Positions 19,980-50,300 of a stretch of 64,000 bases of DNA are shown here, in pieces. The notes below the pieces were generated by a model that did not search any database, was not told where the DNA came from, and saw only the letters and a program-made list of their open reading frames with translations. The stretch is from contig NZ_CZPZ01000012.1 of assembly GCF_001458775.1 (NCBI RefSeq), forward strand, positions 1 to 64,000. Direction: 5' to 3'. A program made the position numbers and the translations under genes. How positions within the stretch are numbered: position 1 is the first letter of the stretch; every line of letters begins with the position of its first letter. Source of the stretch: Candidatus Nitrospira nitrificans. Lineage in GTDB: Bacteria > Nitrospirota > Nitrospiria > Nitrospirales > Nitrospiraceae.

Positions 19980-22301
19980 ATGAAGGATGTCGACCGTCTT
20001 GTCATGCGCACGGTGTCTTGGATGATCCCGCTCCTGACGGTAGGAATTTTTGTCCTAGACCTGTTGACGCCGGTCGGCGTGGCGGTGTCGATTTTATATC
20101 TCGTTCCACTGCTGCTGACGTATCCATCTCTCCGCCCCAGGGATCCGCTCTACGTCTCTGCTGTAGCCACGGTGTTCATCTGGGTTGACGTGCTGCTGAA
20201 GCCGGCCGGACTTCCGATTCCCTACGCCTTGTTTAACCGCACGTTAAGCATGATGGTCATCTGGATCATCGCGATAGGGTTGATTCGGTATAAACAGACT
20301 CAGCACGAGTTGAAATCTGCACTGATTGAGCAGGCCCATGCCGAAGGTCTGATGATGGAAGCGCAAGCGGCGCGTCATCACGCGGATCGGGAAGCGGTGC
20401 GTGCCACGGTCGGCCGCGAAGCGGCTGAAGAGCAGCTCCTCGTCAGCCAGCTCAGGCTGGAGGGCATCATCGAATCCACGATGGATGCGATCATCACCGT
20501 GGACGAGGATCAACGCGTCGTGTTGTTCAACCGCGCGGCCGAGCAGATGTTCGGTTCCTCCGTTCGAGACGCCATTGGGCAACCGCTTGATCGATTCTTG
20601 CCCGCGCGCTTCCGAGACGCCCATCGTCATCATGTCCACGATTTCGGGCAAGGGGGTGTCACGAGCCGGAAGATGGGCAAACTCGGCACAGTCATGGGGC
20701 TCCGCTCGAACGGAGACGAGTTTCCGATCGAAGCCGCGATCTCGCATATCGCTGTGGAGAGGAAGACCTACTATACCGTCATTCTCCGGGACATCACCGA
20801 ACGAAAACGAGCCGAAGACTCCCACCAGGAGAGCCAGCGGCAACTCGCCACCTTGATCAGCAATCTTCCCGGCTTCGTCTATCGGAGTCGAAATGACCGG
20901 AACCGAACACTCGAGTATCTGAGTGAGGGAGTGTCGAATTTGACCGGATATTCCGTCGAGGAATATCTCGCGCGGCAAACGATCTCGTATGGAGAAAATA
21001 CCCATCCAGGGGACTGTGAGCGTATCTGGCAAGAGGTTCAGGCGGCCGTGGAGCAGCATCACCCATTCGAGATGATCTACCGAGTCCTGACCAAATCGGG
21101 CGAAGTCAAATGGGTCTGGGAGCGGGGGGAAGGCATTTACGCTCAGGACGGCTCACTCAATTATGTGGAAGGGTTCGTCACCGACATCACCGAACGGAAG
21201 CGAGCCGAACATTTGCTGCGGCAAAGCGAAGAACGCTACCGGCGCTTGATCACCATTTCGCCCTATGCGATCTTGGTGCACCGAGGCGACCACATCATCT
21301 TTGCCAATGATCAAGCCATCAAGTTGTTCGGAGCGGTGAAGGCCGAGGAGATCCTCGAAAAGTCACCGATGGATCTGTTCCATCCTGATTATCACGTCGT
21401 CATTCGAGAGCGAATCCATGAACTGCTTGAAGGCCGGGCGCAAGTGCCCATGCTCGAGGAACAAATCATGACGCTCGATGGGAGAGCGGTTGAAGTCGAG
21501 GTCAGCACGGCGCGGTTCGTGGATGAGGAAGGTCCGGCTATCTTGGCCATGCTCCGGGACATCAGCGAGCGGAAACGATTGCAGGAACAATTGCGTAAGA
21601 CCGAGCGGATCGCCGAACTCGGCACACTGGCCTCCGGCATGGCCCACGAGATCGGGACGCCGATGAACGTCATTCTCGGCCGTGCCGAATATCTGATGGA
21701 CCGTGTGACGGAAGAGCCGGTGAAAAAAGGGCTTCAAACCATTGTCACGCAGGTTGAGCGGATTACGAAGGTGATGAATCAGTTGCTGACGTTCGCGCGA
21801 CGTAAAGCCCCGGAGCGGTGCCCCTTGGACCTCCGAGGAACTATAGAAGCCGGCATGGATTTGTTTCAGGAACGTCTCGCGCGAAGCCAGATCCAGGTGG
21901 AGCTGACGTTGGCCGACGACTGTCCGATGGCGCTGGCAGATCCGGATCAGATGAGCCAGGTTTTCATCAATCTCGTGATGAACGCCGTGCATGCCATGCC
22001 GGACGGCGGCACGCTACGGATCGGCCTGGCGCCGGAAAAACAGATGGTGAAACTTACGATAGCCGATACGGGCCATGGTATTCCACAGGATGTGGTCGAG
22101 AAAGTCTTCGAGCCGTTCTTCACGACGAAAGAATTCGGTCAAGGGACAGGATTGGGGCTGACCGTGGTCCAGGGCATCATCGAGGAACATCAAGGCTCCA
22201 TCACCGTTGAGAGTGAAGAAGAGAACGGCACGACGTTTACGATCCTGATTCCGCAAGCTGACAGCCGATCTCTCCCTCCTGTAGCATCCCGCAACAGCTG
22301 A
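19980..22301 (+). CDS. Membrane-bound PAS sensor histidine kinase
   Basis: This 773-residue kinase has an N-terminal membrane region of several hydrophobic segments (about 12-105). A short coiled coil follows, then three PAS domains (about 160-270, 280-405 and 410-530, each ending near DITERK or ISERK). The HisKA domain contains GMAHEIGTPMNVILG (phospho-His near 555). The HATPase_c domain has N, G1 and G2 boxes (ADTGHGIP, GTGLGLTVVQGI). There is no fused receiver. Its position between two sigma-54 regulators makes the upstream NtrC-type regulator the probable partner. Confidence 0.9.
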   Translation: MKDVDRLVMRTVSWMIPLLTVGIFVLDLLTPVGVAVSILYLVPLLLTYPSLRPRDPLYVSAVATVFIWVDVLLKPAGLPIPYALFNRTLSMMVIWIIAIGLIRYKQTQHELKSALIEQAHAEGLMMEAQAARHHADREAVRATVGREAAEEQLLVSQLRLEGIIESTMDAIITVDEDQRVVLFNRAAEQMFGSSVRDAIGQPLDRFLPARFRDAHRHHVHDFGQGGVTSRKMGKLGTVMGLRSNGDEFPIEAAISHIAVERKTYYTVILRDITERKRAEDSHQESQRQLATLISNLPGFVYRSRNDRNRTLEYLSEGVSNLTGYSVEEYLARQTISYGENTHPGDCERIWQEVQAAVEQHHPFEMIYRVLTKSGEVKWVWERGEGIYAQDGSLNYVEGFVTDITERKRAEHLLRQSEERYRRLITISPYAILVHRGDHIIFANDQAIKLFGAVKAEEILEKSPMDLFHPDYHVVIRERIHELLEGRAQVPMLEEQIMTLDGRAVEVEVSTARFVDEEGPAILAMLRDISERKRLQEQLRKTERIAELGTLASGMAHEIGTPMNVILGRAEYLMDRVTEEPVKKGLQTIVTQVERITKVMNQLLTFARRKAPERCPLDLRGTIEAGMDLFQERLARSQIQVELTLADDCPMALADPDQMSQVFINLVMNAVHAMPDGGTLRIGLAPEKQMVKLTIADTGHGIPQDVVEKVFEPFFTTKEFGQGTGLGLTVVQGIIEEHQGSITVESEEENGTTFTILIPQADSRSLPPVASRNS

Positions 22302-22417: not shown

Positions 22418-22474
22418 AGTTAGCCAACCTAAGGGCTTGCGAAGACCGGATGGGGGCCGGAGAGGATGTCGCGC

Positions 22475-22864
22475 ATGACGAAGGAAAAGGCCGCTGTGTT
22501 GCTGATCGTTGAGGATGACCGCGAAATGCGCAGTCTGCTCTGCGATGAATTTTGCGGAACCGGGTATCAGCTGCGCGAAGCGCGGAATGGGGACGAAGCA
22601 TTTCTGGCCGTGCTGCAGTCCGTGCCGGATCTGATTTTAACCGATCTGCGGATGCCGGCGGGAGGAGATGATTACATCAGCCGGTTGCGGACCGTGGCGC
22701 CCACATGTCCGATCGTCGTCATCACGGGATTCGGCGATCCGGCATTGAAAGCCCGGGTATTCAAAGCCGGAGCGAACGCGTACTTCGACAAACCCGTCCG
22801 TGTTGCCGAGCTGAAGGCTTGTGTGCAACAATTACTCGACCACAGCTCCGGAGCCGATAGCTGA
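22475..22864 (+). CDS. Single-domain response regulator (receiver)
   Basis: This 129-residue protein is a lone receiver domain: [11 protein letters not shown] acidic pocket, phosphoacceptor in [18 protein letters not shown] and YFDKPVRV. It has no output domain. ATG 22475 is preferred because AGAGG lies nine bases upstream; the ATG at 22466 sits directly on that site. It may act as a phosphate sink or as a partner for the kinase at 19980. It is probably transcribed from the sigma-54 promoter at 22402. Confidence 0.85.
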
Positions 22865-22877
22865 CGGCATAGGCCAT

Positions 22878-24287
<1,410 letters not shown>

Positions 24288-24989
24288 TCCGGTGATTGCC
24301 CCCGTCCAGCCCTTTCTTCAGGTCACTGCTTTCCACGTATCTCAATAACCTCCTCCATTGACATTCTGGATCACGGTCCAGTTGCCTGCCGGAACCGTTG
24401 AGAACCGCATCAGCTTCTGGCATCTGGCCGGACAGAGCTGAAGATGAAGGTTGTTCGTGTGTTCCTTTTCGCCCTTTATCGCATGGACGAACGTCTATCG
24501 CGATGGACAGCATAAGGGACTGATATCTGAACGATCGAGCGGGAAGCTCCTTTGCGATTGTCCAAACTCATAGATTGCGTGAGCGCCGACAACGGCCACT
24601 GATACTGCGATGCGCAGCTCCCATCGTCGCTCTTCACGCACGAATGATCCGCTGAGCATCTACCAAGGATGATGGCACGGACGTTGCGGATGTGCGGTTT
24701 ATAGACAGAGAGGACCGGCTCTGTAGGTGTTGGGTCGTGATTTGCCCTATCACCATCCAGCCCATCGTTTTCAGGTGAGCGGTTGTCCCGACCGCCACCA
24801 CTCAGCGGTGAGGGGGGCACAGGTGAGAGTGCCTCCCTCACTTTCCATGCAGGTCGAGCCTGTAGGTGACACATAGGGATTGAGCGCAAGGCACCATTGC
24901 AAGAGGATGGAAAAACCATCGCTTGCACAGGGCTACGGATGGCGGTACGCACACGCCGTGAAGGCTGTCCGTTGAGAACGAGGAGGCGC
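24288..24989. other. Long intergenic region carrying a sigma-54 promoter
   Basis: About 700 bases without a recognisable gene. Reading frames here lack family features. The clear signal is the -24/-12 promoter at 24673, listed separately. Between 24288 and 24670 there is room for upstream activator sites, but I could not define one. Confidence 0.5.
24673..24688 (+). promoter_or_regulatory. Sigma-54 (-24/-12) promoter
   Basis: TGGCACGGACGTTGCG matches the RpoN consensus TGGCAC-N5-TTGC exactly. GG at 24674-24675 and GC at 24686-24687 are ten bases apart. Transcription would begin near 24699, giving a roughly 290-base leader before the oxygenase-like gene at 24990. The Cys-rich RpoN activator gene lies immediately upstream. 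Confidence 0.75.
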
Positions 24990-25847
24990 ATGCCGAGGGT
25001 CAGCCCAGCGGCCGACATAGAAAGCAATCTTGTCGAAGCTGTCGGGGGGATGGATCGATCTCTCCTCCACCAAGCCTATTGGGATCAAAACGAGTTCCTG
25101 TTGTTGGAACAGTTTATCCCGCCGTCGGTGATCGAGCCCTGCCTCTGCGAGATCGAACAGCTCAGCGGCGAAGTCCATCGCAATTATGTGCCGGGCCACA
25201 AACAGGGAGGAAGCGTCAGTTTTTACAGCATCCAGGAGAAGGCGCCGACGATACTTGCCTTGTATCGGTCGCTTGTGCTTCGCACGTTCTTCAGCCGACT
25301 GGTCGACGCTCCCCTCATGCTCTGTCCCGAAGACGATCCGCATGCCTGTGCCTTGTATTACTACACCAAGCCGGGCGATCACATCGGCTTTCACTATGAC
25401 ACGTCCTATTACAGGGGCGCCCGCTATACGGTCCTCATCGGATTAGTGGAGCAATCCGAGCACTGTCGCCTGGTGGCGCGGGTGCATAAGGGCAAGGCTC
25501 CCACCGAGATCAGCGAAACCCGCATTCCCATGGAGCCGGGCACGATGGTGGTGTTCAACGGGGACAAACTCTGGCACGCCGTCACCCCGCTTGGCGCTCG
25601 CGAACGGCGGGTGATCTTGACTCTGCAATACGTGACGGATCAGCGGATGGGGCCGCTGAAAATATTGTTCTCCAACATGAAGGATGCGTTCGCCTACTTT
25701 GGCCCCGCCGCACTGATGCACCGGCCCAAGGCGAAGCCGCCATCGATCAACGACCGCGCGATGATCCGGTCCGACATGGTGACCGATCATCCGACGCTGC
25801 AATTTCTCGCGGGAGCATGGAGTGCGTCTCACAATCGCGATTCCTGA
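24990..25847 (+). CDS. 2-oxoglutarate/Fe(II) oxygenase-like protein
   Basis: This 285-residue protein has a double-stranded beta-helix oxygenase signature. GFHYDTS gives His135-x-Asp137, LWHAVTP gives distal His196, and RERRVILTLQY supplies the arginine expected to hold 2-oxoglutarate. ATG 24990 has AGGAGG three bases upstream; longer forms start without a ribosome-binding site. Iron and 2-oxoglutarate use is inferred from the motif order. The substrate is unknown. The following Cys-rich gene overlaps its end by 26 bases, so the two are likely cotranscribed, probably from the sigma-54 promoter at 24673. Confidence 0.7.
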   Translation: MPRVSPAADIESNLVEAVGGMDRSLLHQAYWDQNEFLLLEQFIPPSVIEPCLCEIEQLSGEVHRNYVPGHKQGGSVSFYSIQEKAPTILALYRSLVLRTFFSRLVDAPLMLCPEDDPHACALYYYTKPGDHIGFHYDTSYYRGARYTVLIGLVEQSEHCRLVARVHKGKAPTEISETRIPMEPGTMVVFNGDKLWHAVTPLGARERRVILTLQYVTDQRMGPLKILFSNMKDAFAYFGPAALMHRPKAKPPSINDRAMIRSDMVTDHPTLQFLAGAWSASHNRDS

Positions 25848-26328
25848 AGCCCAGGTGGTTGAAGCTCCGACGTTGCTGCGGATGGTCCGGATGGCGCCGG
25901 CCTGCGATGTAGAAGCCGATGAACAGGGAGCGTCGTACGTCGCGCTCTTCGATGATTTCCCCGAATCGATCGACATCGTCATGCGACTGATCGAGGAGGC
26001 CTGGGATCTCCGCGATGTCCACATCACACTCGAAGGTAGGCCCGTCGCGAGCCGGATAAACTTCTATGCCGTCCTCCGCTGCTATCACGAGAGTCTCGGC
26101 GCGCCGGACGCAGACGCATATTGCCTTCAGCAGGCGGAAAAAGTTGGTACTGACGGAGGGTGTCCTGATCGATCCTGTGTGTCCCACTGTCAGTTTATGT
26201 GTTCACGTTGCGTGGGTGTCTCGCGCCATCTGGGCGCGAATCTCATTCCGATTCAGCTCTTGGAACTGGCGCGCCGGGCGGAAGTGGACTGGTGCCCGAA
26301 CCTTCGCATCGCGAAGGTGGATGCGTGA
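25822..26328 (+). CDS. Hypothetical Cys-rich protein
   Basis: This 168-residue protein starts at GTG with GGGAG upstream, overlapping the end of the oxygenase-like gene. The N-terminal part (about 1-90) is an alpha/beta-looking region. The second half has a cysteine cluster, GCPDRSCVSHCQFMCSRC, preceded by YCLQQ and followed by another Cys (DWCPNLRIAKV). This looks like a zinc or iron-sulfur site. I recognise no family. Its overlap with the oxygenase suggests a joint function. Confidence 0.6.
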   Translation: MRLTIAIPEAQVVEAPTLLRMVRMAPACDVEADEQGASYVALFDDFPESIDIVMRLIEEAWDLRDVHITLEGRPVASRINFYAVLRCYHESLGAPDADAYCLQQAEKVGTDGGCPDRSCVSHCQFMCSRCVGVSRHLGANLIPIQLLELARRAEVDWCPNLRIAKVDA

Positions 26329-26507: not shown

Positions 26508-27182
26508 ATGCAGGTTCAGAAGAGCAGGAGGAACATCGGGTTGTGGTCTGTCGTGGTGTCGCTCGCCGCGGCGTTCGCCCTGAGTGGTACGGGGACGGTC
26601 TTGGCCGAAGATACGACGTCGACGGGGAATCGCGTGTTCTTTCGCGGGGGCTATGGCCAGATGCTGAGCGATCGCGCCGGCGAAGCGATTACCGACGTCC
26701 ATACCAAGGGAAATACCGGGACCGGCGGCTATTACATCGGTGGTGGAGCGGAGCTCATGATCACCAAAGATCTCTGGGGCATGATGCCAGGAGTCGCGCT
26801 CGTGGGCGAGATCGGATTGGAGTTCAAGCGGTGGGCATCCAGCAGCGTCTTGAATGGGGAAGCCCTGGTCGGCAATACGGCTCCGGCCAAGGTGCAGATG
26901 ACCATGTTGACGGCGAGCGTGGCGCCCAAGGTGAAGTTCCGGCAGGGGACTGATTTCCAACCCTGGATCATTCCGGCCGGGTTGGATTTCCACGTCATCA
27001 GCCCGACCTCAAGTCAGGTGAATTATTTGGACATCGGGGTTCAGTTCGGTGGGGGCGCTGAGTTTCGCTTGTGGAAAGAGTTGTGGCTGGGTCTCGACAG
27101 CCGCTTCCATCTGGCGTCCAATCAAACCAACACGGTGAATAATTTCTGGACCGCCGGCGTCTATGGGGCGATCGGCTTCTAA
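26508..27182 (+). CDS. Secreted outer-membrane beta-barrel-like protein
   Basis: This 224-residue protein has a signal peptide (hydrophobic VVVSLAAAFALSGTGTVLA, cleavage near residue 33). A beta-rich body follows with alternating polar and hydrophobic strands and many glycines (VFFRGGYGQML, GGYYIGGGAEL), ending in a Phe: GAIGF. This resembles small outer-membrane beta-barrels. GGAGGGG precedes the ATG. Its function is not known. Confidence 0.65.
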   Translation: MQVQKSRRNIGLWSVVVSLAAAFALSGTGTVLAEDTTSTGNRVFFRGGYGQMLSDRAGEAITDVHTKGNTGTGGYYIGGGAELMITKDLWGMMPGVALVGEIGLEFKRWASSSVLNGEALVGNTAPAKVQMTMLTASVAPKVKFRQGTDFQPWIIPAGLDFHVISPTSSQVNYLDIGVQFGGGAEFRLWKELWLGLDSRFHLASNQTNTVNNFWTAGVYGAIGF

Positions 27183-27437: not shown

Positions 27438-28160
27438 ATGTCCATCCCTGAACAAGCCCCGGCGCCCACGGCACCCGCACGCCAGTATGTCAATTTTGTG
27501 TTTTATCAGGTTGCCCCGGCGTGGCGGCGGTTACCGGAGGATACGCGTGTTCAGGGCAAACAGGAGTTTCTGAAGGCCGTGGAGGACTACGCCGGCAAGG
27601 TCCTCGTAGTGCCCTATTCCACCATCGGCATCCGGGGGGACTGCGACTTTATGCTCTGGCGCATCAGCTATGACCTGGACCTCTTCCAAGACATGAGCGC
27701 CAAGATTCTGGCCTCCGGCCTCGGGCAGTATCTCTCTACCCCCTATTCTTACTTGGCGATGACCAAGCGGTCCGTCTATGTCGACCACCATTCACACGCG
27801 GGGCAGGAAGGGAAACGGCTGACGGTGGTGCCGGGAAAAAGCAAATATAACTTCGTGTATCCGTTTGTGAAGACGCGCGAATGGTTTCTGCTCACAAGGG
27901 CGGCGCGACAGGGCATGATGGATGAACATATCGAAGTGGGGCATCGATTTCCGTCGGTGAAACTGAACACGACGTATTCGTTTGGATTGGACGATCAGGA
28001 ATGGGTGGTGGCATTTGAAAGTGATAAGCCGGAAGACTTTCTGGAGCTCGTGATGGCGCTACGCGAAACCGAGGGCTCACGCTACACCCTGCGCGATACG
28101 CCGATTTTCACCTGCATCCGCAAGAGTCTCAAGGAAACGCTCGATACGCTCGGCGGCTGA
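27438..28160 (+). CDS. Chlorite dismutase/HemQ-superfamily protein
   Basis: This 240-residue protein has no signal peptide. The C-terminal half carries the superfamily signature MMDEHIEVGHRF...SFGLDDQEW, with the presumed proximal heme ligand at His164. The distal position, Arg in true chlorite dismutases and Gln in HemQ-type coproheme decarboxylases, appears to be Leu176 here (VKLN). It may therefore bind heme or another tetrapyrrole without chlorite activity. It should not be called chlorite dismutase without testing. TAAGGAG precedes the ATG. The Rieske oxygenase gene begins 14 bases after its stop. Confidence 0.8.
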   Translation: MSIPEQAPAPTAPARQYVNFVFYQVAPAWRRLPEDTRVQGKQEFLKAVEDYAGKVLVVPYSTIGIRGDCDFMLWRISYDLDLFQDMSAKILASGLGQYLSTPYSYLAMTKRSVYVDHHSHAGQEGKRLTVVPGKSKYNFVYPFVKTREWFLLTRAARQGMMDEHIEVGHRFPSVKLNTTYSFGLDDQEWVVAFESDKPEDFLELVMALRETEGSRYTLRDTPIFTCIRKSLKETLDTLGG

Positions 28161-28174
28161 GGCCACAGAACTGA

Positions 28175-29215
28175 ATGCTCGAAGGTTTCTGGTACATTGC
28201 CGGGGAAAGCGCCGCGATCAGGACCGGACGGCCCTTCGCATCGGTTCTCTGCAACCAGCCGTTGGCGCTGTTTCGGGATGGGCAGGGTCGTGTGCATGCG
28301 TTGGAAGATCGCTGTCCTCACAAGGGCGTGCCGCTCTCGTCGGCGCGGCAGGAAGGGGATTCGTTGCGATGCCCTTTTCACGGGTGGCGCTTCATCGCTT
28401 CCGGCGAGTGTATCGAAGTACCGGCCATCGGCAAGGTCCCACATCCGTCGTCGGCCTCGGCCTGCGTGAAGATCTTTCCGGCGGAGGAACAGGACGGGTG
28501 GGTCTGGGTCTATATGGGCAACGAGCAGTGCCCGAAACCTTCGTCGCCACCACCGTCGTTGCCGGTTCCGGCCGACGGCAGTCCGATGGTTTCCGTGCGC
28601 GAGTCCGCCGAGGCGAAAGTCCGGTGGGATTTCGCGGCGGATAGTCTTATGGATCCCGCCCATGTCCCGTTCGTGCATAACAAATATTTCCGACGGCGCG
28701 AGGCAGCCAAGAAAAAGGAAAAAGTGTTCACGCGGCTGCCGTTGGGGTTTCGCACGATCTCGCAGAATGTCGTGCTGCCGGACACATTTATCTTTCGCGC
28801 CTTGTCTCCGAAGCTGGGATCAGCCACGACCACGGTCGATTTCGTGCTGCCCGGCATCCATCTGGAACGGTGGGAGATCGGCAAACGGTTCGCGTCCGTC
28901 ATGTTGGTTGCCACACCGCTCACTGATGAGCGAAGCCGGTTCGACATCTGCGTCGGGTGGAACTTTTTGCGCGGGCTCCCCGTGGGATGGCCGGTCCGCC
29001 GGACCTTGAGGACCATTCTGTGCCAGGACCGGGAAGTTCTGGAATTGCAGGAGCGTGGGTTCGGTCGGAAGGGAAGTATGCTGTTGAACTTGGAATCGGA
29101 CACATTGGCCGTCTGGTATCGGCGGCTGAAGAAATACCGTTTGGATCAATTGGCCGGTGTGCCGGACCCACAACATCCGGTTCCTGAGAAGACCACCCTC
29201 AGCTGGACCACGTGA
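28175..29215 (+). CDS. Rieske non-heme iron oxygenase, PaO/vanillate-demethylase type
   Basis: This 346-residue protein has an N-terminal Rieske domain with Cys47-x-His49 (CPHKG) and Cys66-x-x-His69 (CPFHGW). The catalytic domain contains DPAHVPFVH, giving His163 and His168 as mononuclear-iron ligands. The overall layout and length fit ring-hydroxylating or O-demethylating oxygenases such as vanillate demethylase and pheophorbide a oxygenase. No reductase gene is adjacent. It forms a two-gene unit with the chlorite-dismutase-fold protein, which hints at a tetrapyrrole substrate (inference). Confidence 0.85.
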   Translation: MLEGFWYIAGESAAIRTGRPFASVLCNQPLALFRDGQGRVHALEDRCPHKGVPLSSARQEGDSLRCPFHGWRFIASGECIEVPAIGKVPHPSSASACVKIFPAEEQDGWVWVYMGNEQCPKPSSPPPSLPVPADGSPMVSVRESAEAKVRWDFAADSLMDPAHVPFVHNKYFRRREAAKKKEKVFTRLPLGFRTISQNVVLPDTFIFRALSPKLGSATTTVDFVLPGIHLERWEIGKRFASVMLVATPLTDERSRFDICVGWNFLRGLPVGWPVRRTLRTILCQDREVLELQERGFGRKGSMLLNLESDTLAVWYRRLKKYRLDQLAGVPDPQHPVPEKTTLSWTT

Positions 29216-29378: not shown

Positions 29379-29981
29379 ATGAACCTGCGAGGTCTCATCG
29401 TACTGGTCGGAAGGCTTGTCTTCTTGGTGATACCGATCGTGATAATCGGTCCACTGCACAAGGCGGCAGCGCTCGATTTTTCCGCGGAGTGGATCGTGAA
29501 AAGGGGACCAAGTGTGGTCACGGCTCACGTGAACGCCAAGGATGATCGCTGGCGGGTGGAGTACACGCAACCTCAACAAGGCGCCAGCATCATGATCGTT
29601 CGAGCCGATAAGCAACACGCGTGGCTCATCTTATCGAAACGTCGGCAGTACCTTGAAATTCCGATCGTGAACAACCACCTGTTGGTGGTGACTGAAAAGA
29701 TGAACGGAGAAGTCTCGCGCGAGTTCATAGGCGATGAGACATTGAACGGCCACCCCACGGAGTTGTTTGAAGTGACGGTCGTCGACCAAGGTGAACCGAT
29801 GCAATTCTACCGGTGGGTGACCAAGGCCCAACGGTTTCCACTCAAGACCGTGAGCAAGGAGGGACAGTGGTCGGAAGAGTTTCGCAGACCGATCTTCACT
29901 GAGCAATCTCCGTTCCTGTTCGAACTTCCACTGTTGCTGAGTAATGCGAATCCAGAAAGCATACGGCACCAAACAGAATGA
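29379..29981 (+). CDS. Periplasmic LolA-like/DUF4412-like protein
   Basis: This 200-residue protein has a signal peptide or anchor (VFLVIPIVIIGPL). A beta-rich domain follows, with DRWRVEYTQPQQGASIMIVR and HAWLILSKRRQYLEIP. This pattern, an extracted property of the cell envelope tested against a bound ligand, resembles LolA/LolB-fold and DUF4412 proteins. The assignment is by overall appearance only. A decayed partial duplicate lies just downstream at 30125. Confidence 0.55.
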   Translation: MNLRGLIVLVGRLVFLVIPIVIIGPLHKAAALDFSAEWIVKRGPSVVTAHVNAKDDRWRVEYTQPQQGASIMIVRADKQHAWLILSKRRQYLEIPIVNNHLLVVTEKMNGEVSREFIGDETLNGHPTELFEVTVVDQGEPMQFYRWVTKAQRFPLKTVSKEGQWSEEFRRPIFTEQSPFLFELPLLLSNANPESIRHQTE

Positions 29982-30124: not shown

Positions 30125-30235
30125 CTTGATTTTTCGACTGAGCGGATCGTAAGAAAATAGAGAGTCTGTCGTCATGGCCCACGTCAACGCGCAAGGACGA
30201 TTGCCGGCGGTTCGAGTATGTCCGGCCGGCGGCAC
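30125..30235 (+). pseudogene. Decayed partial duplicate of the 29379 gene
   Basis: The stretch aligns with 29471-29570 of the preceding gene. CTTGATTTTTCG matches its LDFS segment, then GAGCGGATCGTAAG matches EWIVK, and after a stop codon and a frameshift SVVMAHVNAQ matches SVVTAHVNAK. It is too broken to be translated. It indicates an old tandem duplication, now eroded, between this gene and the cupredoxin. Confidence 0.65.
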
Positions 30236-30266
30236 CCAGCGAACTGACGATGTAGGAGGAAGAGCG

Positions 30267-31040
30267 GTGACACGATTAATTAGAAGAGGGCTCTATGTGG
30301 CGGTCTGCGTATATATGGTCCTGGCCTTGGGGTGGCAAACGGAGGGCTGGGCCTATGAGTCTGGAACGGTGACGGAGGGAGCCGTGGTGCGGGGGAAGGT
30401 CACGTTCACCGGCGTCGTGCCGGCCCCGAAGGAATTTGAGTTGCGCCGCTTCCCGGACCGCGAGTTTTGCGGGACCGTGTCGGATGGCAATGGGCATCGG
30501 CTCTTGCACGAAGTCACGGTCGGACCAGACGGTGGGCTCAAGGATGTGGTGATCGTCGTGGAAAACGTGCCGCACGGCAAGCCCTTTGCCTTCACCGATG
30601 CCGAAGTGGAAGCGAGTCTCTGCCAGTTCCTGCCCTTCGTCACGGTGGTCAGCGACAAGCGCCGCATTACGGTGTTTAATCGGGATCCGGTGTCGCACGA
30701 CATTCAAGGCTATGCATATGACCAAGCCGGCGTCGATATCGTCCTCCATCGGCCCGCGCTGCACGTGAGCGGGACCACTGATGTCGTACAGCTGGTCAAA
30801 GGGCGGAAAGTGTTTACCATGCAGTGCGGCATGCACCCCTACATGCAGAACTGGGGCTATGCGATCGACAATCCCTATTATGCCGTGACCGATCTCAACG
30901 GCTCGTTTACGATCGGTGATCTCCCGGCCGGGACCTATCACATCAAGGCCTGGCATCCGATCCTCGGCAGCCAAGAGCGGGAGATGACAGTGCAGCCGAA
31001 CGGGACGGCCACTCTCGATCTCGTCTTCAAAGCGCACTAG
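30267..31040 (+). CDS. Periplasmic cupredoxin-like protein
   Basis: This 257-residue protein starts at GTG with AGGAGGAAG upstream; this start gives a clean signal peptide ending near GWAYES. The fold looks like a cupredoxin. A His in PVSHDIQG and the cluster CGMHPYM (Cys-x2-His-x2-Met) match a type 1 copper site. The C-terminus has a carboxypeptidase-regulatory-like strand set (TDLNGSFTIGDLPAGTYHIKAWHP). Such proteins are usually electron carriers or copper-handling proteins. The SmbP-like gene follows six bases later. Confidence 0.7.
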   Translation: MTRLIRRGLYVAVCVYMVLALGWQTEGWAYESGTVTEGAVVRGKVTFTGVVPAPKEFELRRFPDREFCGTVSDGNGHRLLHEVTVGPDGGLKDVVIVVENVPHGKPFAFTDAEVEASLCQFLPFVTVVSDKRRITVFNRDPVSHDIQGYAYDQAGVDIVLHRPALHVSGTTDVVQLVKGRKVFTMQCGMHPYMQNWGYAIDNPYYAVTDLNGSFTIGDLPAGTYHIKAWHPILGSQEREMTVQPNGTATLDLVFKAH

Positions 31041-31046
31041 CCGCCA

Positions 31047-31475
31047 ATGATGTCGATGAACCGCCTGTCTGTTCCGGGAATGATGATGGGGATTCTCTCC
31101 GCCGTCTTGATGGTCGGGATCGTCGCGGCTGAAGCAGGATCGCCGGACGTGATTCAAGAGCAAGGCCGGGCGATGGTTCGAGACGCGGAAGAGATGGTCA
31201 TGCACGGAGGCATGGGCGACGGAAAAGCCATTCTTCATCATTGCGCGGAAGCGGCGAAACAAGCGCGCGCAATTCTGAAGGCCTTGCCGCCGACCGATGA
31301 GCAGGGCAAGGGGGCAGCGCCGCACTTGCAGGATGTCATCATGTACTGCAAGCGGGTCGCTGAGATGGGAGACCGGGTCGATCCCGGCGCCAGCTTGAAT
31401 CCAGCCGCAAAGGCTCGCGCGGCGGCGCGAGAGGCGATGAAACAGCTCTTGGCGATGAAAGACAGCGGCGCGTGA
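31047..31475 (+). CDS. SmbP-like small metal-binding periplasmic protein
   Basis: This 142-residue protein has an N-terminal signal peptide (MGILSAVLMVGIVAAEAG). The helical body contains MVMHGGMGDGKAILHHCAEAAKQARAI in one run, resembling SmbP of Nitrosomonas, which binds copper and other metals through periodic histidines. Here the histidines are fewer. It is close to the cupredoxin gene and likely cotranscribed, which supports a metal-related role. The start could be any of three nearby Met codons. Confidence 0.6.
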   Translation: MMSMNRLSVPGMMMGILSAVLMVGIVAAEAGSPDVIQEQGRAMVRDAEEMVMHGGMGDGKAILHHCAEAAKQARAILKALPPTDEQGKGAAPHLQDVIMYCKRVAEMGDRVDPGASLNPAAKARAAAREAMKQLLAMKDSGA

Positions 31476-33216: not shown

Positions 33217-33693
33217 ATGTATTCCACCCTGGTCGTCCTGCATATTCTTGCCGCGGTGAGTTGGGTCGGCGGCATGATCTTTCTCTCCGTGGTCTTGGCG
33301 CCTCTGGTCAGGGGACGGAAGGCGGCGCCGGAATTCATGGCGCTGTTTCGATCCGCCGCGCTACGATTTCGTCCCATGGTGTGGGTTGCCATCGCGGTAT
33401 TGCTCGCCACCGGCCCGATGTTGTTGTCTCTGCGCGGCATCGAGATCACGAAGCCGGTTTCGTGGCCGGCGATTGTGACCGTAAAGTTGACGCTGGTCGC
33501 CCTGTTGTTGTTCCTGACTCTACTTCATGATCTTGTCTTCGGTCCTCGGGTCAGTCGGGTCAGCGCCATACCGGATTCCCGGCGAACGGCGGGAGAGCAG
33601 ATAGTCTTCAAGACCGCGCGCTGGCTGCCGCGTCTTTCGCTGCTCATCGCGCTGGTCGTCCTGGTCGCGGCGGCGATGCTGGCACGGTCGTAA
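33217..33693 (+). CDS. CopD-like integral membrane protein
   Basis: This 158-residue protein has four hydrophobic segments. The first, LVVLHILAAVSWVGGMIFL, matches the CopD/DUF4149-type start with a conserved His and a WVGG motif. Such proteins are linked to copper import or are of unknown role. It diverges from the formylglycine-enzyme-like gene. Only 523 bases separate its start from the outward-facing kinase promoter motif at 33725. Confidence 0.7.
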   Translation: MYSTLVVLHILAAVSWVGGMIFLSVVLAPLVRGRKAAPEFMALFRSAALRFRPMVWVAIAVLLATGPMLLSLRGIEITKPVSWPAIVTVKLTLVALLLFLTLLHDLVFGPRVSRVSAIPDSRRTAGEQIVFKTARWLPRLSLLIALVVLVAAAMLARS

Positions 33694-39032: not shown

Positions 39033-42000
39033 ATGACTCGTTTTGAACGAACCCCTACTCCGCTGGTCTATGCCGCCATCGCCCTGTCGACGGCGATCGT
39101 AGTCATCAGCGACCTGTTCACGACTCTGGGTATCACCGTCTGGGTGTTCTATCTGCTGCCGGTGACATTGACGTATTTGGGATGGCGGCCGGCGGTGCCG
39201 CTGATCGTGGCCGGGGCGGCGACCGTCTGTACTGTGGCAGGCTTTTTCTTGAGTCCACCGGGTATCGATCCGGTTTCGGCGGGCATCAACCGCAGCTTCG
39301 GCATCGCCACGCAATGGGCCCTGGCGGCTCTTGGATATCAGTTCATCCGAAACAAGCTCGCCGTGCGCAAACAGGAATGGATGCAATCGGTCCAAGCTCT
39401 CCTGAATGAGCGGATGGCGGGCGAGCTGCGGATGGACCAGCTCGGGTCACAGACCCTCCGCACGCTGGCGGAGAGCCTCGACGCGCCCGCAGGCGCGTTG
39501 TTCATCGAAGACGGCGGGTCGTTTCATCGAATGGCGATGTACGGCGTGCCGGAGGCTGCCCAGGTCCCGGACAGAATTTCAGCGGGGGACGGTTTGCTCG
39601 GGCAGGCGCTCCTCGATCGGCGGGTATTCGTCGTCTCGGATGTGCCGGAGGGCTATCTCAGCCTCGGCTCGGCGCTGGGGCGCGGGATTCCGCGTCATTT
39701 ACTCATCGCTCCCTGCGCGGTGGAAGGCGCGGTGAAGGCCGTGCTGGAACTGGGCTGCTTGCACCCCGTGGGACAGGCGGAAAAAGAACTGCTGGAACGG
39801 GTGGCGGAATCGGTCGCCGTGGCGGTTCGCTCGGCGCAATACCGCGCGCGCTTGCAGGAATTGCTGGAAGAGACGCAGCGTCAGGCCGAAGAACTGCAGA
39901 CGCAGAGCGAGGAATTGCGCGTGTCCAACGAAGAGCTGACGGAGCAAAGCCGGTCGCTCCAAGACTCGCAGGTTCGCTTGGAAGAACAGCAAACCGAGCT
40001 GGAACAGACCAATATGCAGTTGGAAGAACAGACCCAGATCTTGGAGATGCAGAAAGAGGACATGACCCGCGCCAAGGAGGAACTAGAAGCGCAGGCGAGG
40101 GAGCTGGAACAGGCCGGACGCTACAAATCGGAGTTTCTCGCCAACATGTCGCATGAGCTCCGCACACCGCTGAACGCATCGCTCATCCTGGCCCGGCAGC
40201 TGGGCGACAACGCAACGGGCACGCTCACGCCCGAACAGGTGAACTACGCCAGAACCATCGAAGCCGCCGGCCGGGATCTGCTCGCGCTCATCAACGAAGT
40301 GCTCGACCTGGCCAAGGTCGAAGCGGGTCGAATGGAGGTGAATCCCTCCGCCGTGCGCCTCTCGGCTCTCATCCAAAATTTGCGCGGCCAGTTCGAGCCC
40401 ATGGCCCGAGAGAAGGGTTTGGAGCTGCGGATGCAGCTTGCCGCGGAGACTCCGGAGGTGATTGAAACGGATCAGCAGCGGCTGGAGCAGGTGCTCAAGA
40501 ATCTCCTGTCGAACGCGATCAAGTTCACCGAGCGGGGCGAGGTTTCGTTGGAGATCGCCCGCGCCGACGACGGCCGGATCGCGTTCGCGGTCCGCGACAC
40601 CGGCATCGGCATCGCGGAGGATCAGCGCCAGGTGATCTTCGAGCCGTTCCGCCAAGCCGACGGCACGACCAATCGGAAATACGGAGGCACCGGCTTGGGG
40701 TTGTCCATCGCGCAGGAATTCACGCGTCTCTTGGGCGGAGAGATTCGGCTCGAGAGCGAACCGGCAAGCGGCAGCGCCTTCACGGTCGTTCTGCCGGAAC
40801 GGTACGATCCCGCGCAAGTGGTCGGGGCCGAGAAAGGCGTGGGACGCGCATCACACACGGACACCTTGTTCGCGACGGAAGCGAGCCGGAAACAGCATCG
40901 GGCAGGCACAGGGATGCTTTCCGACTCCGGATCGCACATAGCTCCCGCCCCCGTCACACCCGCCGTACCCGACGATCGAGAACAATTGTCCGGCGACCGG
41001 CGCACCGTGTTGATCGTCGAGGACGATGATACCTTCGCCCGCATCCTCTCCGACCTCGCGCATGAGCAAGGATTCCAAGCCCTGATCGCGACCACCGCCG
41101 CCGAGGCGCTGATCCTCGCGCCGCAGTTCCTGCCGAACGCCATTCTCTTGGATATCGGGCTGCCGGATACGTCGGGACTGTCGGTGCTCGATCGGTTGAA
41201 AATCGACGCCCGGACGCGACACATCCCTGTCCATATCGTCTCGTTGCACGATTACACGCAGACGGCGCTGTCGCTCGGCGCCGTCGGTTATATGCTGAAA
41301 CCGGTCAAGCGGGAACAGTTGGTCGAGGCCTTTCGCGGCTTGGAAGACCGCCTGACTCGACGGTTGCGGCGCGTGCTGATCGTGGAGGACGACCCCGCGC
41401 AGCGGGAAGCGCTCGGCTTGTTGCTGGCCTCCCAGGACGTGGAAACCGTCGGCGTCGGGAGCGTCGCCGATTGTCTCGACCAGCTGCAGACGACGACGTT
41501 CGATTGCATGGTGCTCGACTTGAGCCTGCCGGATGCGAGCGGCTTCTCTCTCCTGGAGACACTCAGCCGCGAGGACCGCTATGCCTTTCCGCCGGTGATC
41601 GTCTACACCGGGCGCGACCTCTCGCCCGACGAGGAGCAGCGACTGCGGCGCTATGCCAAGTCCATCATCATCAAGGGAGCCAAGTCGCCCGAACGATTGC
41701 TCGACGAAGTCACGTTATTCCTTCACCAAGTCGTGACCCACTTGCCGCCCGAACAACAGGCGATGCTCATGCGGTCCCGTCGCGGCGATGCGGCGCTGGA
41801 GGGGGCCCGCATCCTGGTCGTGGAGGACGATGTGCGGAATGTCTTCGCGCTCATGAGCGTGCTGGAGCCCCGCGGCGCCAAAATAGAGGTGGCCCGCAAC
41901 GGGCGCGAGGCGCTGGCGGCGCTGGAGGGGTCCGTGCAGCCGGACGGCGCGCCGATCGATCTGGTGTTGATGGACATCATGATGCCCGAGATGGACGGGT

Positions 42001-42188
42001 TGACCGCCATGCGGGAGATTCGCCGGCGTCAAGAATGGAAGCAACTCCCCATCATCGCGCTGACGGCCAAGGCGATGAAGGCCGACCATTTGCAGGCATT
42101 GACCGCGGGCGCCAACGATTACATGGCCAAACCGCTGGATGTGGATAAATTGCTGTCCCTCGTGCGCATCTGGTTGCCGAAAATGTGA
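39033..42188 (+). CDS. Large hybrid histidine kinase with GAF domain and three receivers
   Basis: This is a 1051-residue protein. Hydrophobic segments occupy about 10-110, similar to the membrane part of the kinase at 19980. A GAF domain (about 130-265) and a long coiled coil rich in Gln and Glu (about 270-365) follow. HisKA has FLANMSHELRTPLNA (His374) and HATPase_c has RDTGIGIA and GTGLGLSIAQE. Three receivers begin near 660 (VLIVEDDDTF), 780 (VLIVEDDPAQ) and 925 (ILVVEDDVRN). No Hpt domain is seen. It belongs to a different kinase family (HisKA) from its neighbours (HisKA_3). Confidence 0.92.
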   Translation: MTRFERTPTPLVYAAIALSTAIVVISDLFTTLGITVWVFYLLPVTLTYLGWRPAVPLIVAGAATVCTVAGFFLSPPGIDPVSAGINRSFGIATQWALAALGYQFIRNKLAVRKQEWMQSVQALLNERMAGELRMDQLGSQTLRTLAESLDAPAGALFIEDGGSFHRMAMYGVPEAAQVPDRISAGDGLLGQALLDRRVFVVSDVPEGYLSLGSALGRGIPRHLLIAPCAVEGAVKAVLELGCLHPVGQAEKELLERVAESVAVAVRSAQYRARLQELLEETQRQAEELQTQSEELRVSNEELTEQSRSLQDSQVRLEEQQTELEQTNMQLEEQTQILEMQKEDMTRAKEELEAQARELEQAGRYKSEFLANMSHELRTPLNASLILARQLGDNATGTLTPEQVNYARTIEAAGRDLLALINEVLDLAKVEAGRMEVNPSAVRLSALIQNLRGQFEPMAREKGLELRMQLAAETPEVIETDQQRLEQVLKNLLSNAIKFTERGEVSLEIARADDGRIAFAVRDTGIGIAEDQRQVIFEPFRQADGTTNRKYGGTGLGLSIAQEFTRLLGGEIRLESEPASGSAFTVVLPERYDPAQVVGAEKGVGRASHTDTLFATEASRKQHRAGTGMLSDSGSHIAPAPVTPAVPDDREQLSGDRRTVLIVEDDDTFARILSDLAHEQGFQALIATTAAEALILAPQFLPNAILLDIGLPDTSGLSVLDRLKIDARTRHIPVHIVSLHDYTQTALSLGAVGYMLKPVKREQLVEAFRGLEDRLTRRLRRVLIVEDDPAQREALGLLLASQDVETVGVGSVADCLDQLQTTTFDCMVLDLSLPDASGFSLLETLSREDRYAFPPVIVYTGRDLSPDEEQRLRRYAKSIIIKGAKSPERLLDEVTLFLHQVVTHLPPEQQAMLMRSRRGDAALEGARILVVEDDVRNVFALMSVLEPRGAKIEVARNGREALAALEGSVQPDGAPIDLVLMDIMMPEMDGLTAMREIRRRQEWKQLPIIALTAKAMKADHLQALTAGANDYMAKPLDVDKLLSLVRIWLPKM

Positions 42189-42204
42189 GACGGAGCGTAC
42201 CCTC

Positions 42205-42441
42205 TTATCGCCGAGGCGACGCGGTTAGCCGGAGGATGTGGTTCGAGAGGTCACGACCGCGATGGTGGGCAATGAAGCAGCGGAACCGTCGAAGCAACTC
42301 AGCCAATGGAAACTCCTTTGATAGGAGAATGCCGGAATGCGAGCGTCCTTGCATCTGCCATTCCACAGCCGGTCCGTGAAAGTCTCCGCAGTTGAAGGTG
42401 AACAGGACTCGTTCTTCTCTGGCCGCGTCATGCCCCTTCAA
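42205..42441 (-). pseudogene. DUF5615-type toxin remnant, N-terminally truncated
   Basis: The minus-strand frame encodes the C-terminal half of a DUF5615 (PIN-like) toxin: ERVLFTFNCGDFHG, then GRSHSGILLS and a final helix LAELLRRFRCFIAHH. The normal N-terminal half, about 50 residues containing the first acidic catalytic residue, is absent. Only a TTG at 42441 is available as a start. It directly follows the DUF433 remnant, the usual antitoxin partner. The pair is therefore a decayed toxin-antitoxin module. Confidence 0.65.
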
Positions 42442-42768
42442 CCGGCTGCGGGAGGCAGAGACTCATGCTCGTTCTGCCGGGCGATTTCGGTATCGATCTC
42501 TGCGCGGTGATCATAGTAATAGGACAAGGCGTCGTAAATCGCCGCTAATCCGACGTGCGGGTAATAGGTAAGCAGCTCGTCCGGCGAGAGATCGTAGTGC
42601 AGGACGTAAGTGGCAATTGTCCGGACCGTGATGCGTGTGCCGGTGATGTGGGGGCTGCCTCCGCAGACGGCTCGATCGGACTCGACTATGGATGCGAGAC
42701 GTTCGGCATACCGCTCACTGTACCTGAGGCCGGCAGAAGGGGCAAGAGAAGTGGGGAGTGAGTCAGGA
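42438..42768 (-). pseudogene. DUF433-family antitoxin remnant without a start codon
   Basis: The minus-strand frame between a stop at 42771 and TGA at 42438 encodes a DUF433 domain: RYSERYAERLASIVES, CGGSPHITGTRITVRT, LSPDELLTYYPHVG, IYDALSYYYDHRAEIDTE. No ATG, GTG or TTG exists in frame before the domain; an ATG overlapping its start is in another frame and stops quickly. It either uses a non-standard start or is broken. The divergent cheR gene begins at 42776. Confidence 0.65.
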
Positions 42769-42775
42769 GCCTAGG

Positions 42776-43632
42776 ATGAAGCCAGGCAACGTTCCATCGG
42801 TCTCGACCCTGCCCGAGAAGACCGACGATTTGGAGGCGCAATTGCTGCTTGAGGCGCTGTACCAGGCCTATGAGTATGACTTTCGCGGCTATGCCAAGCC
42901 GTCGATCACCCGACGTCTTGCTCAAGCCCGCTCTCACCTCGGCTGTCGGAGCTATTCCGAACTGCAAGACAAGCTGCTCCACGATCCGGCGGTGTTGCCG
43001 CGGTTGCTCGGGTTCCTGACCGTGCAGGTCAGCGAGATGTTCCGCGACCCCGGCTACTTTCGCGCCTTGCGACAAGAGGTGGTGCCGCACTTGAAGACCT
43101 ATCCCTCGCTCAAGGTGTGGGTGGCCGGCTGCGGCGCGGGCGAAGAACTCTATTCGCTGGCCATCCTGTTTCGCGAGGAAGGGTTGGAGGATCGCACCAT
43201 ATTCTATGCCACCGATGTCGATGCCGACGCCCTCCGAAAAGCCGAGGCCGGCGTCTACGGCGTCGATCGCCTCGCGTTGTTCACGACGAATCACCGGCGT
43301 TCCGGCGCGAAGGGTTCGCTTTCCGAGTACTATCATGCCGACTCGCGGGCCGCGGTGTTCGACAAGACGCTGCGGAAGCGGACGGTCTTCGCCAACCATA
43401 GCCTGGTCTCCGACGCCGTCTTCGCCGAGGTGCATCTGATCTCCTGTCGCAATGTGCTCATCTATTTCGGCCGGCCGCTTCAACACCGCGCCGTCGGCCT
43501 CTTCAGGGACGCGCTCGCGCGGAGAGGATTTTTGGGACTGGGCGATAAAGAGAGCCTACGTTTCATCGGACAGCATGAGGTCTTTGAGCCGTTCGTGGCG
43601 AAGGAACGCATTTATCGGAAACGAGGCGAGCT

Positions 43633-43636
<4 letters not shown>
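42776..43636 (+). CDS. CheR-type methyltransferase
   Basis: This 286-residue protein has the CheR fold. The N-terminal helical domain (ALYQAYEYDFRGYAKPSITRRL) precedes the SAM-binding domain with VWVAGCGAGEELYSLAI, ATDVDADALRKAEAGVYG, and HLISCRNVLIYF. CheR normally methylates glutamates on chemoreceptors, but no receptor, CheB or CheW gene is in this window. Its stop overlaps the start of the next kinase gene by four bases (ATGA), so the two are translationally coupled. ATG 42776 has GGAG upstream; a GTG at 42758 is also possible. Confidence 0.88.
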
Positions 43637-46863
<3,227 letters not shown>

Positions 46864-47007
46864 TACGGTGGGCTTGCGCCTTGTCCGCATAGTGGTCGCC
46901 AGCGAAGACGGAGGACGAATTCGACAATAACCGTCTTATGTCGTGAGACCAAGACGATCTTCAATGACTAAAACGCGCTGTTCGAGGCTCTCCACTCTCT
47001 GATGCGG

Positions 47008-47259
47008 TTATTGATAGGAAAGGCGCAGCAAGGCGCGTGTCTCTTGAGATTCCTGGTGCACTTCAGCACGCATGCTTCCGAGGCTCTGCTGAAGAGCTTG
47101 TTGTCCCTCAATGACGAGTTCAAACTTGTGCTGAAGATCTTCGATCAACACGCCGGCATGGCGTTGCGCTTCATCGATTCGGTCACGCAGCCGACCTTCT
47201 ACGGCTCCTGTCGCTTCCGCAACGATGTGTCGGATCTGGGCCAGCGATTCTGTGTCCAT
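47008..47259 (-). CDS. Small coiled-coil protein, possibly shortened by a stop codon
   Basis: This 83-residue protein is fully helical in appearance (MDTESLAQIRHIVAEATGAV, RHAGVLIEDLQHKFELVIEG). It resembles a widespread family of small predicted coiled-coil proteins with a central H-x3-EDL-x2-K/E motif. The frame stops at TAA 47008-47010, but the next 23 codons in the same frame (to 46936) encode a typical heptad sequence, RVESLEQRVLVIEDRLGL. The stop may therefore be a mutation. It faces away from the double kinase at 47301. Function unknown. Confidence 0.6.
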   Translation of the reverse strand: MDTESLAQIRHIVAEATGAVEGRLRDRIDEAQRHAGVLIEDLQHKFELVIEGQQALQQSLGSMRAEVHQESQETRALLRLSYQ

Positions 47260-47300
47260 ACCGTCCTCCTGAAAGAGGGATACTCTAGGCGATTAGGATC

Positions 47301-50300
47301 ATGAATTCAACCGCGAGTGAGAACCGAGATGCGCCCATGAGCGATCAGGAGAGGAGCCGTCACAGGGGGAACCAGTCCGAGTGCTGGCTCATCGGTGGCG
47401 GCGAAATGGGCGACCTGGTGCGCGCCAAGGACTGGTCACACACGCCGCTGGGACCGATCGAGTCCTGGCCGCAGAGCCTGCGGACGACGGTGAGTCTGTG
47501 TCTCGCCTCCAATTTTCCCATTTCCATCGCTTGGGGGCCGCAACGCGTGCAAATCTACAACGACGGCTACTGGCCGATCTGCGCCGCCAAACATCCCCGG
47601 TCGATGGGGCAAGACTTCAAAGAATGCTGGCTCTCCGCCTGGCCGGTCATCGGCGATGCGTTCGAGCGCGCCTCCAACGGCGAAACCTGTTTTCTCGTCA
47701 ACCAGCGGATGTTCCTCGACCGTCTGGGCTACCTGGAAGAAACCTTCTTCACGTTTTCCTTCAGCCCCATCAGGGATGAATCGGGGCGGCATCGGCGGCC
47801 TGTTCCATCCGGTGACGGAGTTGACCCAGCAGTCGCTCGCGGAGCGGCGGTTGCGGGTGTTGCGCGATCTTGCCGACCGGAGCGCGACCGCGACATCCAT
47901 CGACGAGGGGTTGGCGGTGATCGCTCACACGTTGGAAGCAAGCGAGCTGGATGTGCCGTTCGCCCTGTTCTATCGCCTGGACTCAGAGGGCAAATCCGCG
48001 CGGCGAGTCGCGCTGGTGGGGTTGCAACCGGGATCGGCCTTGGCGCCGGATCGCATCCACTTGGATGTGTCCGGCGAGGCGTCCTGGCCGCTGGCCAAGG
48101 CGCAGGCCGCCGGTGAATCGCTCATGGTCGGGGATCTCGCCAGGCGGTTTGGGCCGTTTCAGTGCCGGCCCTACGACGAAGCGCCGCATTCAGGGATCGT
48201 CCAGCCCATTCTTCTGCCGGGGCTCACGCAGCCCTTCGGCTTTCTGGTGACCGGCGTCAGCTCCCGCCGTCCGTTGGACGAACCCTACCGCACCTTCCAC
48301 GACATGCTCGGCGAGGCCGCGGGTAACGCATTGGCCAAGGCTCGCGCCTATGAAGAAGAACGCAAGCGCGCCGAAGCGCTGGCCGAACTGGACCGCGTCA
48401 AGACGGTGTTCTTTTCCAACGTGAGCCATGAATTCCGCACGCCGCTCACGCTGATGCTCGGGCCGCTGGAGGATGCGCTGGCTCACGCCCATGGCATTCT
48501 CCCCCCTGGTGCGGCCCAGGACTTGGAGACTTCCCATAGGAACGCCCTCCGCCTCCTGAAGCTCGTCAATACCATGTTGGATTTTTCCCGCATCGAAGCC
48601 GGGCGCATTCAGGCTTCGTACCATCCGACCGATCTGGCCTCCTTGACCGCGGAGCTCGCCAGTAACTTCCGGTCGGCCTGCGAAAAGGCCGGTTTGCGGC
48701 TCGTCATCGATTGCCTGCCGCTCTCCGAACCGGTCTATGTCGATCGCGACATGTGGGAGAAGATCGTGCTGAACCTCATCTCGAACGCGTTCAAGTTCAC
48801 GTTGGATGGGGAAATTGAAGTGAGCTTAAAAGAAGTGGGCAGCGGGCGGTGGGTCGTGGATAGTGATGAGCGGGAGGGGAAAAGCGATGGCATCATGCTG
48901 CGCGTTAGAGACACCGGCGTCGGCATTCCATCGGATGAATTGCCGCGCATGTTCGAGCGATTTCACCGCGTTGAACGCAGTCGCGGGCGTACGCATGAAG
49001 GCACGGGCATCGGTCTGGCGCTCGTGCAGGAACTCGTGAAGCTCCATGGCGGCACTGTGCAGGTGGACAGCATCTTCGGTAAGGGAAGCGCATTCACGGT
49101 GACGATCCCGTTCGGTAACGCCCATTTGCCGGAGGACCGTATCAACGCCGGCCGCACCTTGGCCTCCACGGCCACCGGCGCCGCGCCCTTCGTGGAAGAA
49201 GCGCTGCGATGGATGCCCGAAAACAGTCTATCCGGTCTCTCTGGTCTATCTCGTGTACCTGGTGACCAGACAGACCGAATAGACAAGGCAGATTTCGGCA
49301 CCATCCGTCCCCGCGTGCTCGTGGTCGAGGATAATGCCGACATGCGCGAGTATCTCCGCCGGCTTCTGAACCGGAACTACGACGTTGAAGCCGTGGCGGA
49401 TGGGCAGGTCGCTCTGCAGCGGATTCAGGCTGACCTGCCCGACCTCGTGCTCTCCGACGTGATGATGCCGAGGCTGGATGGCTTCGGGTTGCTGCGCGCG
49501 CTGCGGGACGATCCCGCGACAAAGACGATCCCGGTTATTTTGCTGTCGGCGCGGGCCGGCGAAGAATCGCGGGTCGAGGGGCTGGGGCAGGGCGCCGATG
49601 ACTATCTCACCAAGCCCTTCAGCGCCCGGGAATTGCTGGCGCGCGTCGAGGCGCACATTCGGCTCCAGCGTGTCCGCCGCGAGGCCGAAGCGCGGCTCCG
49701 TTCGCTTGCCGGGCGGCTAGAAAGCTTAGTGAAGGAACGCACGCAGGAACTCGAACAGTCGCGGGAACGACTGCGCGCGCTGGCGACCGAGCTCAATCTG
49801 GCCGAGCAGCGGGAGCGTAGACGGCTGGCGACGGAGCTGCATGACCATTTGCAACAAATGCTGGTGCTCGGAAAGCTCAAGCTCGGCCAAGGCAAACGAC
49901 TGGCGAACGTGGAACCCACAGCGGTCAAACTGATCAAGGAGACGGACGAGGTGTTATCGGATGCCTTGACCTATACCCGCACCATGGTGGCCGAGTTGAG
50001 CCCGCCGGTCTTGCGGGAGTTCGGGCTCTCGGCCGGACTCAAGTGGCTGGGTGAGTACATGAAGAAGCGCGAGCACAGGGTGGCCGTCGTTGTGCCGGAC
50101 AGCGGCGCTCTCAAATTGCCGGACGATCAAGTCATCCTATTGTTTCAATCCGTGCGCGAGTTGCTGATCAATTCATCGAAACATGCCGAGACCAGTGAAG
50201 CCAAGGTCACCATGGAACAGCGCGATGGAAATTTGTTCATCACCGTGAGTGATGAGGGGAAAGGCTTCGATCTTGCTGCTGCTCCTCCTGCTGAAGTGCC

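Follow-up and report, generated by a model that had tools for sequence, protein, structure and literature searches.

Coproheme decarboxylases (ChdC) lack the distal Arg of chlorite dismutase (Cld). The firmicute enzymes have a Gln at this site and fill the propionate-4 role with a Lys, and the actinobacterial ones use a His located on the inter-domain loop (PMC7611857). In actinobacterial-type ChdCs neither Arg nor Gln is present, and a distal His is found instead (PMC7611857, PMC9953210). In the window, i.e. the whole 64,000-nucleotide stretch of Candidatus Nitrospira nitrificans DNA analysed here, a gene for a protein of the chlorite dismutase fold (ChdC2) is followed after 14 bases by a gene for a Rieske oxygenase (Rieske A) on the same strand (Table 1). 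A sequence-only reading of this DNA had noted a kept proximal His region and a Leu at the expected distal Arg or Gln site, and suggested a possible tetrapyrrole-processing pair. Overall this interpretation is partly supported: the observation was correct, the reading mostly not. As judged from its homology, ChdC2 is a coproheme decarboxylase; that it forms a novel pathway together with the Rieske enzyme is improbable.

Table 1. Features of the ChdC2 gene cluster, with positions counted along the window.
Feature	Position	Strand	Basis and remarks
PAS-histidine kinase, conserved cluster regulator	19980..22301	+	Pfam PAS/HisKA/HATPase; in register in related loci
Response regulator	22466..22864	+	By inspection; in register in related loci
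NtrC-type sigma54 activator	22821..24287	+	Pfam Sigma54_activat E=5e-67, Fis-type HTH
Sigma54 -24/-12 promoter-like site TGGCACGGACGTTGC	24673..24687	+	Between activator and 2OG gene
HalD/2OG-Fe(II)-type oxygenase, first gene past the promoter	24897..25847	+	Pfam HalD E=4e-10; start uncertain; conserved
Cys-rich protein, 168 aa, overlaps 2OG gene	25822..26328	+	No Pfam match; conserved neighbour
Outer-membrane beta-barrel protein	26508..27182	+	Pfam OMP_b-brl E=2e-5, under curated cut-off; conserved
ChdC2, accessory coproheme decarboxylase (by homology), 240 aa	27438..28160	+	Y141, H164, L176, W189, H118/H120; good Shine-Dalgarno
Rieske A non-heme iron oxygenase, 346 aa	28175..29215	+	CPH/CPFH cluster, D-P-A-H-x4-H
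Secreted-looking protein, family c21, often downstream	29379..29981	+	Conserved neighbour
Secreted-looking cupredoxin-like protein with carboxypeptidase-regulatory-like domain	30174..31040	+	Pfam; cupredoxin-like by inspection; conserved
Protein weakly matching SMBP (small metal-binding protein)	31047..31475	+	Pfam E=2e-5, under curated cut-off
CopD-like membrane protein	33217..33693	+	Pfam CopD E=1e-7; conserved

ChdC2 matched the Pfam family Chlor_dismutase (PF06778) with E=2.6e-57 and 194 bits against a cut-off of 25 bits. Its best matches among solved structures were the actinobacterial ChdCs (E about 2e-24; M. tuberculosis 2e-24). The similarity to the firmicute ChdC/HemQ enzymes (G. stearothermophilus, L. 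monocytogenes), which have the fold and the conserved catalytic Tyr in common with ChdC2, was weaker (5e-13 for 1t0t, 1e-9 for lmo2113). The placement of residue 176 comes from aligning sequences and profiles with chains of known structure. Leu176 aligned with R173 of N. defluvii Cld, a site read through the chains 4m09 and 3nn3, which have Gln and Ala there, and with an Ala in the ChdCs of M. tuberculosis and C. diphtheriae. Hence ChdC2 has Leu where the profile alignments place the distal Arg of Cld, at the very residue singled out in the earlier reading, and the alignments with Cld and the actinobacterial ChdCs likewise gave no distal Gln of the firmicute type. This absence is not anomalous, because actinobacterial-type ChdCs lack both residues and use a distal His. 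Leu was found at this position in 52 of 52 Nitrospira ChdCs compared; it is the normal state of the Nitrospira enzyme, which removes the apparent anomaly.

The active site of ChdC2 has further features in common with the actinobacterial enzymes (C. diphtheriae 6xub, M. tuberculosis 9mhq). Apart from the fold, these are the catalytic Tyr (Y141, at the position of Y135 in C. diphtheriae ChdC), the proximal His (H164, aligned with Cd H158), two Trp residues (Trp149 and Trp189, Cd W143 and W183), the Asn177-Thr178 pair (Cd N171-T172), a small or aliphatic residue for Gln or Arg, and, as a candidate distal base, a His in the linker loop. The proximal His has no Glu partner in either, and in ChdC2 it is G213 that lies opposite E210 of N. 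defluvii Cld. The differences are a Leu instead of an Ala at the Gln site, a longer linker with two invariant His, a Lys (Lys145) for Cd R139, and Ser214 at Cd R208, which binds propionate 2; the next residue of ChdC2 is an Arg. Lys145 is not diagnostic, as Cld also has a Lys there. The counterpart of the distal His was H120 in the alignment with the C. diphtheriae enzyme and H118 in that with the M. tuberculosis enzyme. The two lie two residues apart, and both were invariant in an alignment of 26 sequences. ChdC2 also differs in its host, a diderm member of the Nitrospirota, and in its score of 126.8 bits with the curated NCBIfam model HemQ_actino, below the cut-off of 235; no curated equivalog covers it. 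AlphaFold2 models were poor, with a mean pLDDT of 39.7 for ChdC2 (26 sequences) and 39.4 for Rieske A (8 sequences).

With Nitrospira Cld (that of N. defluvii and the genome's own, L003) ChdC2 has the fold and the organism group in common. Cld has a distal Arg, a proximal Glu and no catalytic Tyr, and ChdC2 is the opposite at all three. The genome's own Cld, to which ChdC2 is 27% identical, has Arg at the site of residue 176 and Ile at that of the catalytic Tyr. It is encoded at G000:C2:80680-81243, its distal Arg lies in the motif TVKRKLYHS, and by inspection its gene sits between ORFs resembling adenylosuccinate lyase and SAICAR synthetase.

Three genes of the superfamily are thus present in this genome: ChdC2, the true chlorite dismutase and a housekeeping ChdC next to cinA, which is on another contig and 91% identical to the window copy. 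The genes for CpfC (ferrochelatase) and a HemY/CgoX-type oxidase overlap on one contig, HemF was not found in the genome and HemN gave no match above the cut-off, as in the coproporphyrin-dependent heme pathway. With CpfC and HemY/CgoX present and HemF and HemN not found, heme b should be made by this route, the last step of which requires a ChdC. Flanking the cpfC and HemY/CgoX genes (L091, 4062-11319) are genes for a DesA-like desaturase and a homolog of cyclopropane-fatty-acid synthase; in clade B a comparable pair of desaturase and methyltransferase adjoins the ChdC copy (L209).

In phylogenetic trees the accessory copies, including that of the window, formed one supported clade (96/92) containing all Rieske-adjacent copies; a second tree recovered the grouping with lower support. 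The genomic context separates the copies as well. Among the named relatives cinA adjoins the housekeeping ChdC in 55 of 64 loci and only one of 16 other copies, of which eight have an adjacent Rieske gene and eight are in clusters without it. The one exception is Nitrospira sp. CG24E (L196), where the cinA-side housekeeping ChdC is joined to genes for an outer-membrane protein, a Crp-type regulator, a desaturase and CopD, possibly at a recombination junction.

The most likely activity of ChdC2, as suggested by homology, is the H2O2-driven decarboxylation of two coproheme propionates to heme b. Tyr141 would then be the radical site, His164 the iron ligand and one of the linker His (118 or 120) the distal base. 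Alternatively, ChdC2 could have ceased to be a decarboxylase and serve the cluster as a heme or coproheme chaperone, a sensor or a peroxidase, the essential job being left to the remaining housekeeping copy. The protein does evolve faster than the housekeeping copy, and purifying selection is about twice as lax (median omega 0.06 vs 0.03). Yet an omega of about 0.06 is still low, and the ChdC2 copies show no variation at the aligned active-site residues: across the 52 Nitrospira copies Leu176, Trp189 and His120 do not vary, and Tyr141 and His164 are missing only in a degraded copy in the genome G019. We therefore regard such a change of function as distinctly unlikely.

Rieske A was described in the earlier reading as similar to pheophorbide a oxygenase (PaO) and vanillate demethylase. 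The second half of this description holds: Pfam gave Rieske (E=4e-22) and VanA_C (E=2e-12). A PaO family match was not obtained; with Pfam at E 0.001 only Rieske, VanA_C and Rieske_2 matched. Kinship with PaO was rejected on these grounds, and the protein is VanA/DdmC/SxtT-like. It has the CPH/CPFH and D-P-A-H-x4-H motifs and the VanA_C domain in common with this type, and differs in that the full-length protein matches no curated subfamily. The cluster residues C47, H49, C66 and H69 and the iron ligands H163 and H168 are invariant; D285, assigned by motif only, is a candidate third ligand. No reductase gene was seen in the cluster. Nearly all members of the genus also have a second Rieske homolog, of 34% identity, which lies in an unrelated neighbourhood with no ChdC beside it. 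Rieske A is not specific to comammox Nitrospira, as some genomes with it are AmoA-negative (G006, G011, G026, G052) and one belongs to a different genus (G210).

The pair with ChdC2 was found in part of Nitrospira only. Where it occurs, the spacing of 14 bp is exact in 15 of the 15 pair loci listed, which include some genomes counted in two collections, and this despite diverged synonymous sites between the members. In at least six genomes, however, Rieske A is intact and ChdC2 is reduced to a stub, and the deletions responsible are of at least two kinds. The stub before the Rieske gene consists of about 70 bp from the 3' end of ChdC2 in G004, G006, G011, G140 and G146 (loci L071, L072, L074, L216 and L217), whereas in G028 (L075) a piece of the 5' half is left upstream of it. 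In G019 the gene is split between two contigs, apparently due to rearrangement, with residues 1-220 on one and 215-240 on the other (L107/L199 and L065); a further degraded ChdC copy was seen in the same genome (L108). No trace of ChdC was detected at the other Rieske A loci (G021, G026, G052 and G210). These findings show that the linkage is old in the lineage, that the loss of ChdC2 happened repeatedly and that the Rieske gene is independent of ChdC2. As the losses include several AmoA-positive genomes (G004, G140, G146), ChdC2 is dispensable.

These patterns bear on the proposal that ChdC2 and Rieske A act sequentially on one tetrapyrrole, for example with the Rieske enzyme oxidising coproheme, an intermediate or the heme made by ChdC2. 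The invariable spacing and the intact residues of Rieske A would fit it, and some Rieske oxygenases are known to open the chlorophyll ring. However, Rieske A outlives ChdC2, it is VanA/DdmC-like and gave no PaO family match, the second Rieske homolog of the genus does without an adjacent ChdC, and the ChdC copies of clade B have other partners. The persistence of Rieske A and the clade B copies in particular make an obligate tetrapyrrole pair unlikely, and sequential action on one tetrapyrrole is in our view very improbable. What stands of the earlier proposal is a heme/coproheme-type enzyme in a genuine linkage with a Rieske gene. Rieske A more probably acts separately, perhaps on a lipid or small organic substrate rather than on heme.

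The repeated losses with stubs, the rearranged copy in G019 and the fragment in G028 could also mean that ChdC2 has no special connection with the cluster and is merely a redundant gene copy, which was kept by dosage or chance and is now being lost. Against this speak the long-term purifying selection, the exact spacing and the fact that related clusters have recruited a ChdC in both clades of comammox Nitrospira. We consider this reading rather unlikely. Instead we think it probable that ChdC2, as a paralog of the housekeeping enzyme, catalyses the standard reaction and was recruited to a sigma54 cluster for inducible heme b formation, with the Rieske enzyme working separately.

Our literature search found no paper describing this ChdC-containing cluster. 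The 2OG oxygenase, the Cys-rich protein, the outer-membrane protein and the sigma54 regulators are steadier neighbours of Rieske A than ChdC2 is. The Cys-rich protein is a candidate substrate or partner of the 2OG oxygenase, and the sigma54 activator may in fact begin downstream of the GTG given as its start. A giant, secreted-looking multicopper-oxidase protein (about 1585 aa), for which Pfam gave only partial coverage, recurs in the cluster in other genomes (L068, 9130-13887; L171, 10362-15119), and further downstream in the window (39033-50937) there is a row of three hybrid sensor kinases of very large size (1051, 1076 and 1093 aa).

The exact sequence TGGCACGN4TTGC of the sigma54 promoter-like site has only two matches in the 4.1 Mb genome, and the other one (C12:248914) has no obvious gene within 3 kb downstream. 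Most related clusters have the site at the corresponding position, and where amoC is inserted it is still directly before the 2OG gene. The exceptions include G028, G026, G052 and G042, the last with a mismatch at the first base. Scans for sigma70 promoters and terminators gave nothing above chance. Going by the motif, expression of the cluster would be under sigma54 control; a separate promoter may be present in the 255 bp before ChdC2.

The window genome is of the comammox type and carries AmoA. AmoA was present in all ten pair genomes of the whole-genome samples and in the rearranged G019. In a sample of 59 genomes it was found in 9 of 9 pair genomes vs 34 of 59 overall (P=0.004, without phylogenetic correction), and among the named genomes with a cluster copy in 13 of 16, the other three being draft assemblies. 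In genomes which we take to be clade B comammox (CG24C, L.E.N.18 and others), from their AmoA score group and general knowledge, a related cluster holds a ChdC copy along with, among others, a gene for a fatty-acid desaturase, but no Rieske A. These copies group with the clade B housekeeping copies and are much closer to these, with a dS of 0.30-0.38 vs 1.2-1.9 in clade A, which points to a separate duplication or gene conversion. The check for co-occurrence thus gave a pair of constant spacing in part of Nitrospira, with deletions of ChdC2 and a clade that does without this Rieske gene.

Several of the clusters (L068, L075, L171, L185, L209, L211) contain a singleton amoC. Non-operonal amoC genes are known in comammox genomes and are thought to be linked to stress in ammonia-oxidising bacteria (PMC6311188). 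One could imagine a module for ammonia oxidation under stress that has an AmoC of its own, and in which ChdC2 would produce or handle heme, or a partly decarboxylated heme such as harderoheme, for a modified cofactor of the sigma54-induced redox cluster, with optional tailoring by the Rieske enzyme; to this we give only the slightest chance. The preferred reading is that ChdC2 was recruited beside the Rieske oxygenase into an iron/copper redox cluster with a conserved putative sigma54 promoter. There it would probably provide additional, inducible capacity for making heme b at times when the cluster, in some genomes together with the singleton amoC, is switched on.

The picture that emerges is of an accessory cluster, mostly of comammox Nitrospira, which combines a second, predicted heme-finishing enzyme with iron/copper redox proteins and sometimes a singleton amoC. 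The conserved promoter makes its induction directly testable by transcriptomics. The recruitment of a ChdC in both comammox clades suggests that these organisms have a special need for heme b when the cluster is on.
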